Of a stretch of DNA of 64,000 bases, positions 36,787 to 42,362 are shown one piece after another. Location of the stretch: positions 310,001-374,000 of the forward strand of contig NZ_SRHV01000005.1 of NCBI RefSeq assembly GCF_004698125.1, written 5' to 3'. The stretch comes from Halosimplex halophilum (lineage in GTDB: Archaea > Halobacteriota > Halobacteria > Halobacteriales > Haloarculaceae). Made by a program: the position numbers and the translations under genes. The first letter of the stretch is position 1. The number at the start of each line of letters is the position of its first letter. The notes beneath the pieces are model-generated. The model saw only the letters and a program-made list of their open reading frames with translations, made no database searches and was not told the DNA's origin.

Positions 36787-38115
36787 TCAGTTCGCGTTTC
36801 GGTCGCGGAAGAACTCCTCTTTCGCGAACGGTTCGTCCTCGCCCTGGACGTCGAGCACGTCCAGCGCCGTCACCTCGGCGTCGACGCCGAGCAGGCCCGC
36901 GAGGCTCGGCTCCGTGCGGCCCTCGTCGCTGGAGACGAGTTCCTTCACGTAGAGGCCGCCCTCGCCGTGGAGTTCGACGGTCGCGTGGCGGTCGTCCTCC
37001 AGTTCGCCCTCGATGTCGTACACGTCGCGGGTCCGCTCGATGTCCGCGCGGCGGTGGTCGACCCGCTGGGGCGTCCGCTGCTCGACCGTCACACCGTCGA
37101 GTTCGTCGAGCGCGGCCTCGAAATCGGTGGGGTCGACGGCCTCGCCGAACTCGATCTCCATGCGGTAGGTCTTGCTGGCGTCGAGCTCCTTGACGCGCTC
37201 GACCATCTCGTGGGTGGCCTGCCGGAGGTCCGTCACCTCGACCTTGCCGTCGGCGAACTCGTTGATCTCGGGCTGGAGGGTCGCGGCGTCGACGGTCCGC
37301 TCGCGGGGCTCGTCGATCTCGATGACGAACGGGCGGCCGCCTTCGAGCATCAGGGCGTCCACGTCCTCGCGGCCGGCGCCGTGGAAGGTCGCCGACTCGC
37401 CGTCCATGGCCTCCAGCACGACGGGGGCGGTGAGCTGTTCGACGCTCTCGTCGTAGCGGTACCCCGAGCCGTCGCAGCCCTCGCAGATCTCGCCGCGGAT
37501 CAGGCCGGTGCCGTTGCAGTCGTTGCAGGGCCACTTCGTCTGGGGGATGTCCCGTTCGAGCTTGCGGTAGCGGCCGTAGACGAACGCGGAGTTGACCTGC
37601 GCGTCGACGGTGTCGTCGCCCAGGTTCAGCGTGATCTGCACGTCCGGGCGGCCGAACTCCACCTCGGCGCCCGTCTCGCGGCCGAACCGCTTGCCCACTT
37701 CCCTGTTGAGTTCGGCCTTCAGCGCCTCGCCGGTGTCGTCGGCGAGGCCCAGGTCCTCCCGGAGGAGCGCGTCGTTCTCCTCGAACAGCGGCGGGACGCG
37801 CGTCCCGACCTGGAAGGTCTCGAAGTCGTAGTCGTCGACGGCGTAGGCGGCGCGCTCGGCCCACTCCTGCACCCGCTCCTCGGTGGACTCGCCCTCGCAG
37901 ACCCAGCAGGACTCGTCGGGTTCGAGGTCGGCGACGGGGCGGTCGTCGGCGAGTGCGACGGCGACGCGGAGGCTCCGGCCCCGCTCGCGGTTGGTGAGGC
38001 CGAAGCTCCGCTCGGCGAACAGGCGGCCGAGACAGGGGTCACAGAGCGGCCCCGTCTCGACGGCCCGCCGCGCCAGGTCGAGCACGTCGTCGGTCGGGCG
38101 CGCGTCGTCGGTCAT
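36787..38115 (-). CDS. pus10: tRNA pseudouridine synthase Pus10
   Basis: A 442-residue enzyme that makes pseudouridine 54/55 in archaeal tRNAs. The N-terminal zinc-binding region shows LCDPCLGRLF and CWVC. A THUMP-like part follows. The catalytic segment reads GREDVDALMLEGGRPF, where the Asp after GREDV is the expected nucleophile. An additional CNDCNGTGLIRGEICEGC cluster (about residue 220) may bind a second metal. ATG 38115 is chosen because the longer frame overlaps the next gene and adds Arg/Pro-rich sequence. The standard motif has Arg-Met-Leu-Gly where this protein has Leu-Met-Leu-Glu. Confidence 0.9.
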   Translation of the reverse strand: MTDDARPTDDVLDLARRAVETGPLCDPCLGRLFAERSFGLTNRERGRSLRVAVALADDRPVADLEPDESCWVCEGESTEERVQEWAERAAYAVDDYDFETFQVGTRVPPLFEENDALLREDLGLADDTGEALKAELNREVGKRFGRETGAEVEFGRPDVQITLNLGDDTVDAQVNSAFVYGRYRKLERDIPQTKWPCNDCNGTGLIRGEICEGCDGSGYRYDESVEQLTAPVVLEAMDGESATFHGAGREDVDALMLEGGRPFVIEIDEPRERTVDAATLQPEINEFADGKVEVTDLRQATHEMVERVKELDASKTYRMEIEFGEAVDPTDFEAALDELDGVTVEQRTPQRVDHRRADIERTRDVYDIEGELEDDRHATVELHGEGGLYVKELVSSDEGRTEPSLAGLLGVDAEVTALDVLDVQGEDEPFAKEEFFRDRNAN

Positions 38116-38209
38116 GGGAGAGGGTGGGCGACCGGGCCGTAATTCCCTTTCGACATCCGCGGACGCGCTCGTCTCCCGGCGATACCGTCCGTTCGGGACC
38201 CGGCGCCGC

Positions 38210-39166
38210 TCAGGCGTCGGGGTCGGTCGGCGAGTACTCGCTGCAGTCCCGGCCATCGACCGTCGAGTCGGTGCAGTCGAACCCCGAGGGATCGACGTAC
38301 ACGTCGCCGCCGACGGTCGCGCCGTCGAGCTTGACCCCCTCGTCGGCGGTTACCGACCCGTCGACGCTGCTGTCGAGGACCTTCACCGATTTCTCGTCGC
38401 TCTCGGCGTCGCCGCCGACCGACCCGCCGTCGATGACCTCGACGGTCTTCTCTGCCCGCACAGCGCCGCCGACCGTCGCGCCGTCGACCTTCGCGGTCTC
38501 GGTCCGTGCCCGCACCGAGCCGCCGACGGTCCCGTCCTGGACGTTGGCGTCCTTCTCGACGGTCACGTCGCCGTAGACCCGCGAGTCGTCGAGGTCGAGG
38601 AGCTTCGCGTGGCTGACCGCGTCGCCGACGACCGCGCCGCCGTTCTGGAGCTCGATCACCTTGTCGGTCTCCACGTCGCAGGCGACGACGATCCCGTCGA
38701 CTTTCGCGTCGTCGGTCCCGCCGCTGGTCTCGGTGTCGACCCAGTCGCAGCCCTCGTCCGGCGGCGGCACCGTCGCGTCGGCGTCGACGGTGAACTCCCG
38801 GAGGACGTAGCTGGTGTCGTGGTCGCCGAACCAGACGACCTCGACCGTCTCGTCGGTCGCGTACACGCGCCGGCTGTCGGCCGCGGCGAAGTCCGCGCCG
38901 GCCAGCGCCTCGTCGTTCGCGACCCCGCGGAGGCGAACGTCGTCGCCGTCGAGTGCCTCGCCGTGGTCGTGGACGAGTGCGTGTTCGCCCCGGAGGTCGC
39001 CGGTCGACTCCAGCGACAGCCGCACCTCCGGCGCGGGCTCGCGTTCCTCGGTCAGCCCGAGGACGACCCCGCCCGCGACGACCGCCAGCACCACCACGAT
39101 CGCGACGAGCAGCGCGCCCCCGATCACCGGGGAGAGTCCCCTGTCCCGTCGGTCGAGCCGCGACAC
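38210..39166 (-). CDS. Type IV pilin-like protein with seven 18-residue repeats
   Basis: A 318-residue protein. The N-terminus RDRGLSPVIGGALLVAIVVVLAVV (quoted key: RGLSPVIGG) is the class III signal of archaeal pilins: charged end, cleavage region and a hydrophobic helix of about 25 residues. Residues 180-292 contain seven repeats that begin with G-[DSA]-[VA] at 181, 199, 216, 234, 252, 270 and 287, a period of 17-18. This spacing fits a beta-solenoid like bactofilin. Cys140, 163, 298 and 308 could form disulfides. It is probably a surface or pilus-associated protein. The pilin-solenoid combination is unusual to me. Confidence 0.8.
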   Translation of the reverse strand: MSRLDRRDRGLSPVIGGALLVAIVVVLAVVAGGVVLGLTEEREPAPEVRLSLESTGDLRGEHALVHDHGEALDGDDVRLRGVANDEALAGADFAAADSRRVYATDETVEVVWFGDHDTSYVLREFTVDADATVPPPDEGCDWVDTETSGGTDDAKVDGIVVACDVETDKVIELQNGGAVVGDAVSHAKLLDLDDSRVYGDVTVEKDANVQDGTVGGSVRARTETAKVDGATVGGAVRAEKTVEVIDGGSVGGDAESDEKSVKVLDSSVDGSVTADEGVKLDGATVGGDVYVDPSGFDCTDSTVDGRDCSEYSPTDPDA

Positions 39167-39255
39167 TGTGTCGGAACCCAGGAGCGGACCGACTTGACCG
39201 TTTCCGGTGGTTTCAATTCGTGAAACCGCTTCCCCGACGAGACCGGCTGTCGGGA

Positions 39256-39618
39256 TTACACGTCTCGAAGGCCGAGACTGTACTCCAGGGCGCGATCGAC
39301 CTCGTCGAGACGCTCGTCCGGTATCGATCCGATCACCTCGGTGACCCGTTCCTCGATCGATACCGTCCGGATCTGGCTACATAGAGCGACCGAATCCTCG
39401 CGGAGGGCACACTCCTCGGCGGGCACGAGCACCTCGAAGGGGTACAGCTGGTCGCCGAACGAGGTGGTGAACGGGACGACGACCGTGGTCGGGGCGTTCT
39501 CGTTGCCGACGTCGTTCTGGACGACGAGACAGGGGCGGGTGCCCCGCTGTTCCGACCCGCGCGTCGGGTCGAGGTCGACGACGACGATGTCGCCGCGACG
39601 GACGTGTGTCCCCGCCAT
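39256..39618 (-). CDS. MazF/PemK-like toxin
   Basis: A 120-residue protein with the PemK/MazF fold pattern: RRGDIVVVDLDPTRGSEQRGTRPCLVVQND, where the Arg-Gly-Asp-Ile start and the G-x-E-Q-x-G-x-R-P-x-[LV]-V-[VI]-x-N line are family hallmarks. A later pattern, VVVPFTTSF, plus SQIRTVS, supplies the catalytic Thr/Ser-like region. Members are sequence-specific mRNA endonucleases. Its ATG directly touches the stop of the upstream AbrB-type gene (TAG-ATG), as in toxin-antitoxin pairs. Confidence 0.88.
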   Translation of the reverse strand: MAGTHVRRGDIVVVDLDPTRGSEQRGTRPCLVVQNDVGNENAPTTVVVPFTTSFGDQLYPFEVLVPAEECALREDSVALCSQIRTVSIEERVTEVIGSIPDERLDEVDRALEYSLGLRDV

Positions 39619-39885
39619 CTACCAATCCGGCGCGTCTCCGAGGTACTCGTCGGCTTCACTGGACGTGTGTTCCATCTTCTCGGCGATCTCGCGGGCGCGC
39701 TCGGCGGTGGCACGATAGCCCGCTGCGAGTTCCTCGCGCGTGACGGGCTTCTCGATGACGACCTTCCCCTCGTCCTCCCGGACGACGACCTCGTCACCGC
39801 CCTCGATACCCAGCCGCTCCCGGATCCCCTTCGGGAGCGTCACCTGCCCGCGCTCGCCGACCGTTCGCTCTTCCTCGTTCGACAT
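39619..39885 (-). CDS. AbrB/MazE-like antitoxin
   Basis: An 88-residue protein with an N-terminal AbrB-type swapped-hairpin DNA-binding domain (TVGERGQVTLPKGIRERLGIEGGDEVVVREDEGKVVIEK pattern, residues about 8-46). The C-terminal half is helical and acidic and would bind the toxin. It is translated just before the MazF-like gene. An AT-rich near-palindromic stretch upstream (39886-39912, around gatcatatcatattcg) is a likely autoregulated promoter. Confidence 0.87.
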   Translation of the reverse strand: MSNEEERTVGERGQVTLPKGIRERLGIEGGDEVVVREDEGKVVIEKPVTREELAAGYRATAERAREIAEKMEHTSSEADEYLGDAPDW

Positions 39886-40026
39886 ACGCGATCATATCAT
39901 ATTCGTACTTTTGGCTGTTTCGTTCGCCGCGCTCTCGTGGGCCGTGACCGGCGACGACCTCCCGTCGCGGCCGGTCTGTCGGTGTGGCCCCGTTCGCCGC
40001 CGATGAGCCCGGTTTACTGACCGGTG

Positions 40027-41112
40027 CTACGCCGGGGTCGCACCGGGCTCGTCGGTCACCGGCGTCTCACCGGGGGCGTCCGTCGGCGTCGGTTCCGGCG
40101 TCTCGACGGGCGCGGCCGTCTCGATGGACAGCCGCTCCGCCTCGATCGACTCGATGGTCGCGCTCTCGACCGTGACGTTCTCGACGACCCGGACGGTGAC
40201 GTTCTCCGCGTCGGCGGGCGTCTCCGGCGTGGCCTCGGTCGGCGTCGCGGTCGCCGTCGGGGTCTCGGTCGCGGCCTCGGCCGGGGTCCCGGCCGCCGTC
40301 TCCGTCGGCGTGTCCGTGGCGGGCGCCTCGGTGGTGGCGAGCGTCTCCACGTCCATCTCCTCGACGTCGAGGTCGTCGACGGAGACGTTCTCCACCACGA
40401 GGTGCGTCTCGGCCGTCTCCTCGTCCGCCGTCGGCGTCGCCGTCTCGTCGCCCTCGGCCGGGGTCTCGTCGTCGGTCGGCGTGTCCGTGGCGGACGCCGG
40501 GGCGCCGTCGGTCGGCGTCGGGGTCGCGTCGCCCGCGTCGGCGGGCGTCGCGGTCTCGTTGGCGTCGTCGTCATCGCCGCCGAATAACCCTCTGATGAAG
40601 TCGAGGATACCACCGATCACGCCGCCGCCCGCGCGGTCCTCGACATCCAGTTGCTCGATGGTCACGCTGTCGACGCTCATCTGTTCGATCGTCGCGTTGG
40701 ACACCGGCCCGACCTCGGGGTCGGTCGCGCCGGCGTCAGCGGCGTCCCCGACCCCGACCGAGAGACCGTCGGCCGACGCGTTCTCCAGCGCGAGTTCCTC
40801 GAAGGACACGTTACGCAGCACGACGACGTCGTTCTCGACGCCCAGCGTCTGATTGAGGTCGTCGATACCCGTCTGGTTCTCCACCGTGAGCCGGTCGATC
40901 CGGAGTTCCCGGATCGTGACGTTCTCGACCGTGGCGTTGTCGAGCGTGAGTTCGTCGACCTGTGCGTTCGCGACCGTGACCGACTGCGCTGTCCCGTCTG
41001 CCGGCTGTGTCGTCTCGCCGGCGACGCCGGCGTTTCCGGCGAGGACCGGCGCCGACAGCGCCGATACGGCGATAGCAGTCGCTACCAGTGCGGCTGTGAC
41101 TTTCCGTCTCAT
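40027..41112 (-). CDS. Secreted Thr/Glu-rich repeat protein
   Basis: A 361-residue protein with a Sec-type signal (MRRKVTAALVATAIAVSALSAPVLAG). Two similar repeat regions (about 40-160 and 255-340) carry short lines such as NATVENVTIRELRIDRLTVEN and VVENVSVDDLDVEEMDVE, a pattern of alternating hydrophobics that suggests a beta-solenoid. Many N-x-[ST] sites favour N-glycosylation. Between and after them are long PTETAAG/TPT-rich linkers. A hydrophobic patch GGGVIGGILDFIRGLFGG lies near residue 170. No enzyme motif is seen. ATG 41112 is preferred as it starts the signal peptide. Confidence 0.75.
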   Translation of the reverse strand: MRRKVTAALVATAIAVSALSAPVLAGNAGVAGETTQPADGTAQSVTVANAQVDELTLDNATVENVTIRELRIDRLTVENQTGIDDLNQTLGVENDVVVLRNVSFEELALENASADGLSVGVGDAADAGATDPEVGPVSNATIEQMSVDSVTIEQLDVEDRAGGGVIGGILDFIRGLFGGDDDDANETATPADAGDATPTPTDGAPASATDTPTDDETPAEGDETATPTADEETAETHLVVENVSVDDLDVEEMDVETLATTEAPATDTPTETAAGTPAEAATETPTATATPTEATPETPADAENVTVRVVENVTVESATIESIEAERLSIETAAPVETPEPTPTDAPGETPVTDEPGATPA

Positions 41113-41489
41113 TACGCTCGGATCTGGCGGCGGAGCGCCGATAAAGGCCGAGAGCCGTTTTCGCGACAAACGCGAGCGTACTCGCTCGCCCGCACCGCTA
41201 GGGCGGCCCTGTCGACCGATCGGTCCGGGGTACTCGACGCGGGATGGACCGTCCCGTCGCTAACGCCACCTTTCGACCGGGAGCGAACCCGGCCCGGCCG
41301 CCGGTAGTCCGGTCGTCCGTTCGCGCCGGGCCGCTGAAAGGCGATCTTACGGCGCGAGTGTGCGGTGTTGCGGTGACGGCGAGACCGGCTGGTCCCCTGT
41401 CACGCGACGCGACCCTGTGGGTCGTCTCGACGACGCCGCGACCGGTCGAGATCCGAACGCCTTTACTCGCGAGGCACGCCCCTGCCGCC

Positions 41490-42362
41490 ATGGATCCGCG
41501 GGCGACGCTGCTCGCACTGCTGGTCGGGCTCGTGCAGGGCGTCCTGGAGTGGCTGCCGGTCTCCAGCGAGGGCGGCGTCGCGCTCGTCGTCGCGCTGCTG
41601 ACGGGCGAGTCCGCGTTCGACGCGACGCAGTTCGCCCTCTTTCTACACGCGGGGACGGCCGTCGCCGCGCTGGCCTTCTACCCCGAGGAAGCGGCCGGCG
41701 TCCTCGAATCCGTGCCGGCGTGGCGCCCCCGCGACGCCTTCGGGGCCGACCGCGCGGACCTGACGTTCTACGGGGTCGCGACGCTCGTCTCGGGGGTCGT
41801 CGGGCTCTCGATCTACGCCGCGCTCTCGGAGGCCGCCACGGAGCTGGCGGGCGGCGCGTTCGTCGCCGCCGTCGGCGTCCTGCTCGTCGGCACAGGTCTC
41901 ATCCAGCGGGCCGCCGACCGCTGGGGGCTGGGCGAGCGCGAGACGCCCGGCGCCGCCGACGCCGTGCTCGTGGGCGTCTGCCAGGGCCTCGCCCTGCTCC
42001 CCGGCGTCTCCCGGTCGGGAACCACCGTCAGCGCGCTGCTCCTGCGGGGCCACGAGGGCGAGCGCGCGCTGCAACTGTCCTTCCTCCTCTCGATCCCCGC
42101 CTCGCTCGGCGCGGGCCTGCTGGTCGTCCTCGACGAAGGGGTGCCGACGATCCCGGTCCCGCAGGCAGTGCTGGCGCTCGCGGTCAGCGCCGTCGTCGGC
42201 TACCTGACCGTCGGTGCGCTGGTGGCGCTGGTCCGCCGCGTCGCCTTCTGGGGCGTCTGCGTCGGCTTCGGCGCGCTGGCGGTCGCCGGCGGCGGACTGC
42301 TCGTGCTCGCCGAACACGGCTGGCTCGCCGGCGTCCAGGACTGGCTGCTTGCCGCCGTGTGA
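41490..42362 (+). CDS. uppP: Undecaprenyl-diphosphatase-like protein (UppP/BacA)
   Basis: A 290-residue membrane protein with about eight hydrophobic segments. Signatures are VGLVQGVLEWLPVSSEGG (first conserved Glu-rich region and Pro-Val-Ser-Ser) and GLALLPGVSRSGTTVSALLLRG (second motif with the Arg and Ser). In bacteria it recycles undecaprenyl pyrophosphate; in archaea the likely substrate is a dolichyl or other polyprenyl diphosphate used for glycan export or N-glycosylation. ATG 41490 (MDPRATLLALLVG) is preferred to upstream frames with Arg/Pro-rich sequence. Confidence 0.9.
   Translation: MDPRATLLALLVGLVQGVLEWLPVSSEGGVALVVALLTGESAFDATQFALFLHAGTAVAALAFYPEEAAGVLESVPAWRPRDAFGADRADLTFYGVATLVSGVVGLSIYAALSEAATELAGGAFVAAVGVLLVGTGLIQRAADRWGLGERETPGAADAVLVGVCQGLALLPGVSRSGTTVSALLLRGHEGERALQLSFLLSIPASLGAGLLVVLDEGVPTIPVPQAVLALAVSAVVGYLTVGALVALVRRVAFWGVCVGFGALAVAGGGLLVLAEHGWLAGVQDWLLAAV

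Follow-up and report, generated by a model that had tools for sequence, protein, structure and literature searches.

A haloarchaeal pilin-like protein with a C-terminal beta-solenoid, probably a modular type IV pilin

What is the role of a protein that begins as an archaeal pilin and continues as a beta-solenoid? The question is raised by a gene located in a stretch of 64,000 nucleotides of the haloarchaeon Halosimplex halophilum (contig NZ_SRHV01000005.1, positions 310,001 to 374,000, hereafter the window). The original prediction, made from the sequence, was of a class III pilin N-terminus fused to a bactofilin-like solenoid, forming a pilus-linked or membrane-anchored scaffold outside the cell. 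We have analyzed the gene, its relatives and the predicted structure of its product.

The gene is found at positions 38210-39166 of the minus strand and codes for a protein of 318 residues, as verified in the list of open reading frames. The open reading frame, the AlphaFold models and full-length homologues with 45–53% identity, found in genera of several haloarchaeal families, lead us to describe it as a modular type IV pilin with a C-terminal beta-solenoid. The start codon is the GTG at 39166, the first one past the upstream stop, and there are no further in-frame start codons between this stop and the pilin motif. The plus strand carries a long antisense ORF (37883-39223) that appears to be a shadow of the GC-rich pilin gene. 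The protein begins with MSRLDRRDRG, followed by LSPVIGG and a hydrophobic helix (residues 13–38 in the AlphaFold model). Residues 1–10 (39137-39166, minus strand) would constitute the class III leader, with a predicted prepilin peptidase cut after G10. The match to TIGR02537 was of 32.8 bits (cut-off 20) and that of residues 9–79 to Pfam Pilin_N (PF07790) of 39.4 bits (cut-off 25.2), so that the class III pilin N-terminus of the original prediction was borne out. R9 and P13 are invariant across 12 orthologues. A simple class III pattern was detected in one of the 104 ORFs of the window with at least 200 residues, and in 45 of the 47 relatives retrieved.

The pilin module, delimited by Pilin_N, VIA-align and the profile, comprises residues 11–132 (38771-39136, minus strand), that is, the helix mentioned above and a beta domain (residues 48–126). 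AlphaFold with 29 homologues modeled both modules of the protein confidently, with a mean pLDDT of 93.1 over the whole protein. When the pilin part was compared with the subunit of the Haloferax volcanii pilus solved by cryo-EM (8fj5), Foldseek gave an E of 8.7e-7 and VIA-align a Z of 11.5 (rmsd 3.8 over 118 residues, model residues 9–129). The family profile matched the same subunit at E 1.5e-17, and the values for three solved haloarchaeal-type pilins spanned from 1.5e-17 to 6e-9. The match to 8fj5 indicates a whole pilin module at the N-terminus, more than a signal, and the completeness of this module, with helix and beta domain, makes assembly into a filament likelier than a simple membrane anchor. 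The window protein has the class III signal, the conserved hydrophobic helix and the beta domain in common with 8fj5 and with PilA2 of Natrinema (8gi2). However, the solved PilA subunits have 145–165 residues and stop after the pilin domain, whereas here a solenoid of ~180 residues is added. Matches to PHROGs were confined to the pilin part, and the viral fold library gave nothing at E <= 0.001. In the model, the pilin part extends to about residue 126, followed by a linker (residues 127–139) and by the solenoid module from residue 140. This is the arrangement by which modular pilins are recognized: a short linker connects the pilin module with an additional one that is not specific to pili.

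In the full-length model the linker leads to a short helix (residues 140–146) and then to the beta-solenoid, which occupies residues 154–304 (38255-38707, minus strand) as judged by the repeat spacing, the shuffle test and the strands of the model. Seven repeats of 17–18 residues had been noticed in the sequence and they are real. They start at G181, G199, G216, G234, G252, G270 and G287, at intervals of 18, 17, 18, 18, 18 and 17, and the periodicity score peaks at 25.9 for 17.75 residues, a value reached by none of 1000 shuffles (mean 11.6, s.d. 2.3). Structure prediction, which had been proposed as a check, gave a beta-solenoid in the full-length model and also when this part was modeled alone (mean pLDDT 96.9). 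Its clean matches in VIA-align (rmsd 3–4) are beta-helices, among them adhesins, namely the tapirins of Caldicellulosiruptor (6n2b, Z 13.2, rmsd 2.9; 4wa0, Z 12.1) and the self-associating antigen 43 (Z 12.1). The two tapirin structures were deposited as tapirin and possible adhesin; they share the beta-helix with the window solenoid, but at 9–10% identity, in a larger domain and, in the solved domain, without a pilin module. Pectate lyases and other unrelated beta-helices score almost as high, and alginate lyases were also matched, so these matches indicate the fold and are no proof of adhesin function. The left-handed helices LpxD and GlmU, with high Z values at an rmsd near 10.6, were set aside as structural relatives. 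Since the clean matches are beta-helices and these left-handed ones align only at such an rmsd, the modeled solenoid would be right-handed.

Both ends of the solenoid are conserved. The N-terminal end (residues 140–163; 38678-38749, minus strand) contains the short helix together with C140 and C163, and the C-terminal end (residues 296–318; 38213-38281, minus strand) contains C298, C308, Y311 and P313. The four cysteines and Y311 are invariant in 29 sequences and P313 across 12 orthologues. In all the solenoid members examined in full (32 out of 32) there was one pair of cysteines per end whatever the length of the protein, which goes from 271 to 526 residues, with 96 to 334 residues between the second and third cysteines. 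Such conservation of cysteines in a protein predicted to be exported would point to disulfide staples, probably one at each end. Differences in length were also found among close relatives: the Halosimplex paralogues L004 and L005 are devoid of 17 consecutive residues found in L002, L003 and L009, and L067 of 16 residues found in L065, in both cases about one coil. Comparisons of this kind show, at the level of the alignments, that the length of the rod evolves by whole coils. The solenoid looks like a rod with putative caps and an adjustable length, not like the subunit of an open-ended polymer. The conserved cysteine pairs and the short end elements argue against end-to-end polymerization, and polymerization of the solenoid is not indicated.

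The solenoid has a net charge of -18. Elsewhere in these proteins lysine is avoided, the ratio of lysine to arginine being 17:65 in the pilin modules and 84:38 in the solenoids (Fisher p 9e-12, which is overstated since the sequences are related). The alignment revealed five clade-specific lysine columns, K188, K226, K240, K262 and K279 (38328-38605, minus strand), occupied by lysine in 9–12 of the 12 close orthologues and mostly by aspartate or a gap in other clades. K226, K262 and K279 are found at about equal positions within their coils. This lysine-bearing surface is a candidate ligand-binding face in the clade of the window protein.

We have searched other haloarchaea for the same fusion and found it in about 29 of 391 sampled genomes, where profile matches reached into the solenoid (a few were partial or had a stop) and several homologues showed ~50% identity over their full length. 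The window genome has a second, shorter copy (G000:C1:1639375-1640238). Neither the window protein (P0001) nor the long relative L064 was found as a plasmid copy. A profile of the solenoid alone, searched in 393 genomes at a threshold of E <= 1e-12, gave 12 matches, every one, by inspection, behind a class III-like N-terminus; half of them belong to the starting alignment, which leaves six independent matches, two of which are near copies. The carriers are of at least three pilin-like kinds (Pilin_N, DUF7289-like and DUF7261-like). Among the carriers outside Pilin_N, L141 weakly resembles DUF7289 and L143, also weakly, DUF7261; L139 and L140 match no named family. The tree of the pilin modules had support too weak to count solenoid gains. 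The same kind of pilin module was found with another C-terminal domain in the L043 group, with an FG-GAP match in L043, the member tested. In ten proteins (L043, L044, L048, L049, L050, L051, L054, L055, L069 and L070) a C-terminal domain of ~300 residues replaces the solenoid. The window genome also codes for a second pilin-like solenoid protein (L076:325-2541, in the G000:C3:75766 region), of 738 residues, with DUF7289, a weak Bactofilin match and DUF7305.

The pilin gene is solitary, located between a MazF-like pair and Pus10. Directly upstream are the MazF-like toxin (39256-39618, minus strand) and an AbrB/MazE-like antitoxin (39619-39885, minus strand). The gene at 40027-41169 (minus strand) codes for an exported-looking protein of 380 residues, with repeats such as VENVTIRELRIDRLTVEN and Thr/Pro-rich stretches, which had no match above cut-off in Pfam or NCBIfam. 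When 21 loci were compared, nothing was shared beyond genus-level synteny with the exception of the Pus10/UppP block, and there was no conserved pilus-gene neighbor. The clearest synteny outside the genus is that of the Pus10 and UppP neighbors, common to the window (36787-42362) and L117 (G030). Elsewhere in the window genome there are a single prepilin peptidase gene and four loci for pilus-platform proteins. An isolated gene position is not unusual, six PilA genes being cited in comparison.

There are precedents for such an architecture in Bacteria, where modular pilins are well described and the grafted modules serve adhesion (PMC8179133). In PilB of Streptococcus sanguinis the module is grafted through a short linker after a small pilin module, for display at the tip and adhesion (PMC8179133); it is a bacterial protein with a vWA domain as module, while ours is archaeal with a solenoid. 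ComZ of Thermus thermophilus, a DNA-binding pilin for which a position at the tip of the pilus has been argued, has a large beta-solenoid module of ~380 residues inserted into the beta-sheet of its pilin part (PMC6561018). The solenoid of the window protein differs from it in being placed after the pilin domain, regular, cysteine-flanked and strongly acidic. A DNA-receptor role like that of ComZ would be possible by analogy. A pilin with a "bactofilin motif", PilBac5 (SO_0850), is found in Shewanella oneidensis (PMC4376143). PilBac5 is bacterial and located in a pilin gene cluster, and we set it beside the window protein by description. The supposition that the architecture was undescribed is too broad in view of ComZ and PilBac5; of the archaeal pilin-solenoid family no description was found in the literature searched, whose coverage was partial.

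Bactofilins are beta-solenoids with coils of about 17–18 residues, and they usually polymerize in the cytoplasm and have no pilin module. The coil length and a weak profile similarity are what the window protein has in common with bactofilins and halofilins; it differs from bactofilins in its predicted export, in having a conserved cysteine pair at each end and in its variable number of coils. The original designation of the solenoid as bactofilin-like has to be restricted: the beta-solenoid with its spacing of 17–18 residues is genuine, but the match of the window protein to Bactofilin (PF04519) was of 17.3 bits, below the cut-off of 27.9. Longer or other relatives (L063, L064, L142, L144 and L146) passed the cut-offs of both Pilin_N and Bactofilin, and Bactofilin matches at E <= 1 were found in 25 of 29 family members. 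The family profile gave weak matches of similar strength to bactofilin A (2n3d, E 0.025) and to ice-binding proteins (E 0.15). There was no bactofilin or halofilin among the Foldseek and VIA-align matches listed for the solenoid, which is not evidence of absence. A distant kinship of the solenoid to bactofilins is possible. The window genome has two proteins with clear Bactofilin matches and different N-termini, P0002, with a Sec-type signal and later membrane helices, and P0003, without signal.

We consider it probable that the protein is a minor type IV pilin of modular build that shows a solenoid rod outside the cell, probably for adhesion. In favor are the Pilin_N and TIGR02537 matches above cut-off, the fold and profile matches to solved haloarchaeal-type pilins, the prepilin peptidase and platform loci of the genome, the class III-like N-termini ahead of all the solenoid-only matches, the rarity of the class III pattern among the window ORFs, the flanking cysteines and the whole-coil indels. 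The adhesin matches, the FG-GAP grafts and the adhesion modules of Bacteria would add to this by analogy; the solitary locus without a conserved pilus-gene neighbor counts against it. An unlikely alternative, with which a gene away from the pilus operons would fit, is a scaffold on the cell exterior: the pilin helix would remain embedded in the membrane and anchor the protein, and the solenoid, beneath or within the S-layer, would shape the cell surface somewhat as halofilin B is reported to do. HalB is reportedly at the outer cell surface in Haloferax. That halofilins give haloarchaeal cells their shape (PMC12186497) and that longer relatives exceed the Bactofilin cut-off favor such a scaffold, but the N-terminal part is a complete pilin module instead of only a helix, the putatively capped solenoid is found on several different pilin-like carriers, and the bactofilin-type proteins of the genome, P0002 and P0003, have other N-termini. 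Of the pilus-linked or membrane-anchored scaffold originally envisaged, the joining of a pilin-type N-terminus to a genuine solenoid stands; the whole pilin module makes a filament likelier than a simple membrane anchor, and the cysteine-flanked ends argue against end-to-end polymerization.

A related idea, to which we give a small chance, is an outside skeleton of pilin-borne rods that would associate mutually or with the S-layer and that the pilus machinery would assemble or put in place. It is very unlikely that the protein is a true extracellular bactofilin whose solenoids assemble through their ends or their sides into filaments attached to pili or to the membrane: the repeat length, the frequent faint Bactofilin matches within the family and the long members above the cut-off would fit, but the window protein remains under this cut-off, its solenoid is flanked by conserved cysteine pairs and end elements, and the number of coils differs among close relatives. 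More improbable still appears a secretion-like pseudopilin or membrane-tethered substrate-binding protein, in which the solenoid would recognize a polymer being secreted or taken up. Polysaccharide binding is common among beta-helices, and the fold matches include pectate and alginate lyases; against this, partner genes beside the pilin gene are not conserved and no enzyme family was found above the Pfam cut-off in the window protein.

If the protein is a modular pilin, its class III signal would put the preprotein into the membrane, where the single prepilin peptidase would cut after G10. The PilA-like helix and beta domain would then allow entry into a type IV pilus, most likely at the tip or near it given the bulky extra domain, as both the structure and the bacterial precedents suggest. 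The C-terminal solenoid would form a stiff rod exposed on the cell exterior, with ends probably stapled by disulfides between the conserved cysteines and a length that shifts by whole coils over evolution, as the comparison of close relatives shows. The outer face bearing the lysines may perhaps bind an anionic polymer, another cell or a surface. This model is open to direct test by deletion, pilus shearing and adhesion assays.

In H. volcanii 47 substrates of the prepilin peptidase have been predicted (PMC4371748). Haloarchaeal genomes have dozens of such predicted substrates, mostly without a role so far, and the pilin-solenoid family is a concrete class among them. The presence of one kind of rod on several unrelated-looking carriers, together with the FG-GAP graft on the same kind of pilin module, points to pilins serving as display platforms in archaea as they do in bacteria. 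Rather than a new cytoskeleton, the solenoid family in haloarchaea suggests a standard way to show a rod, probably sticky, on surface filaments.
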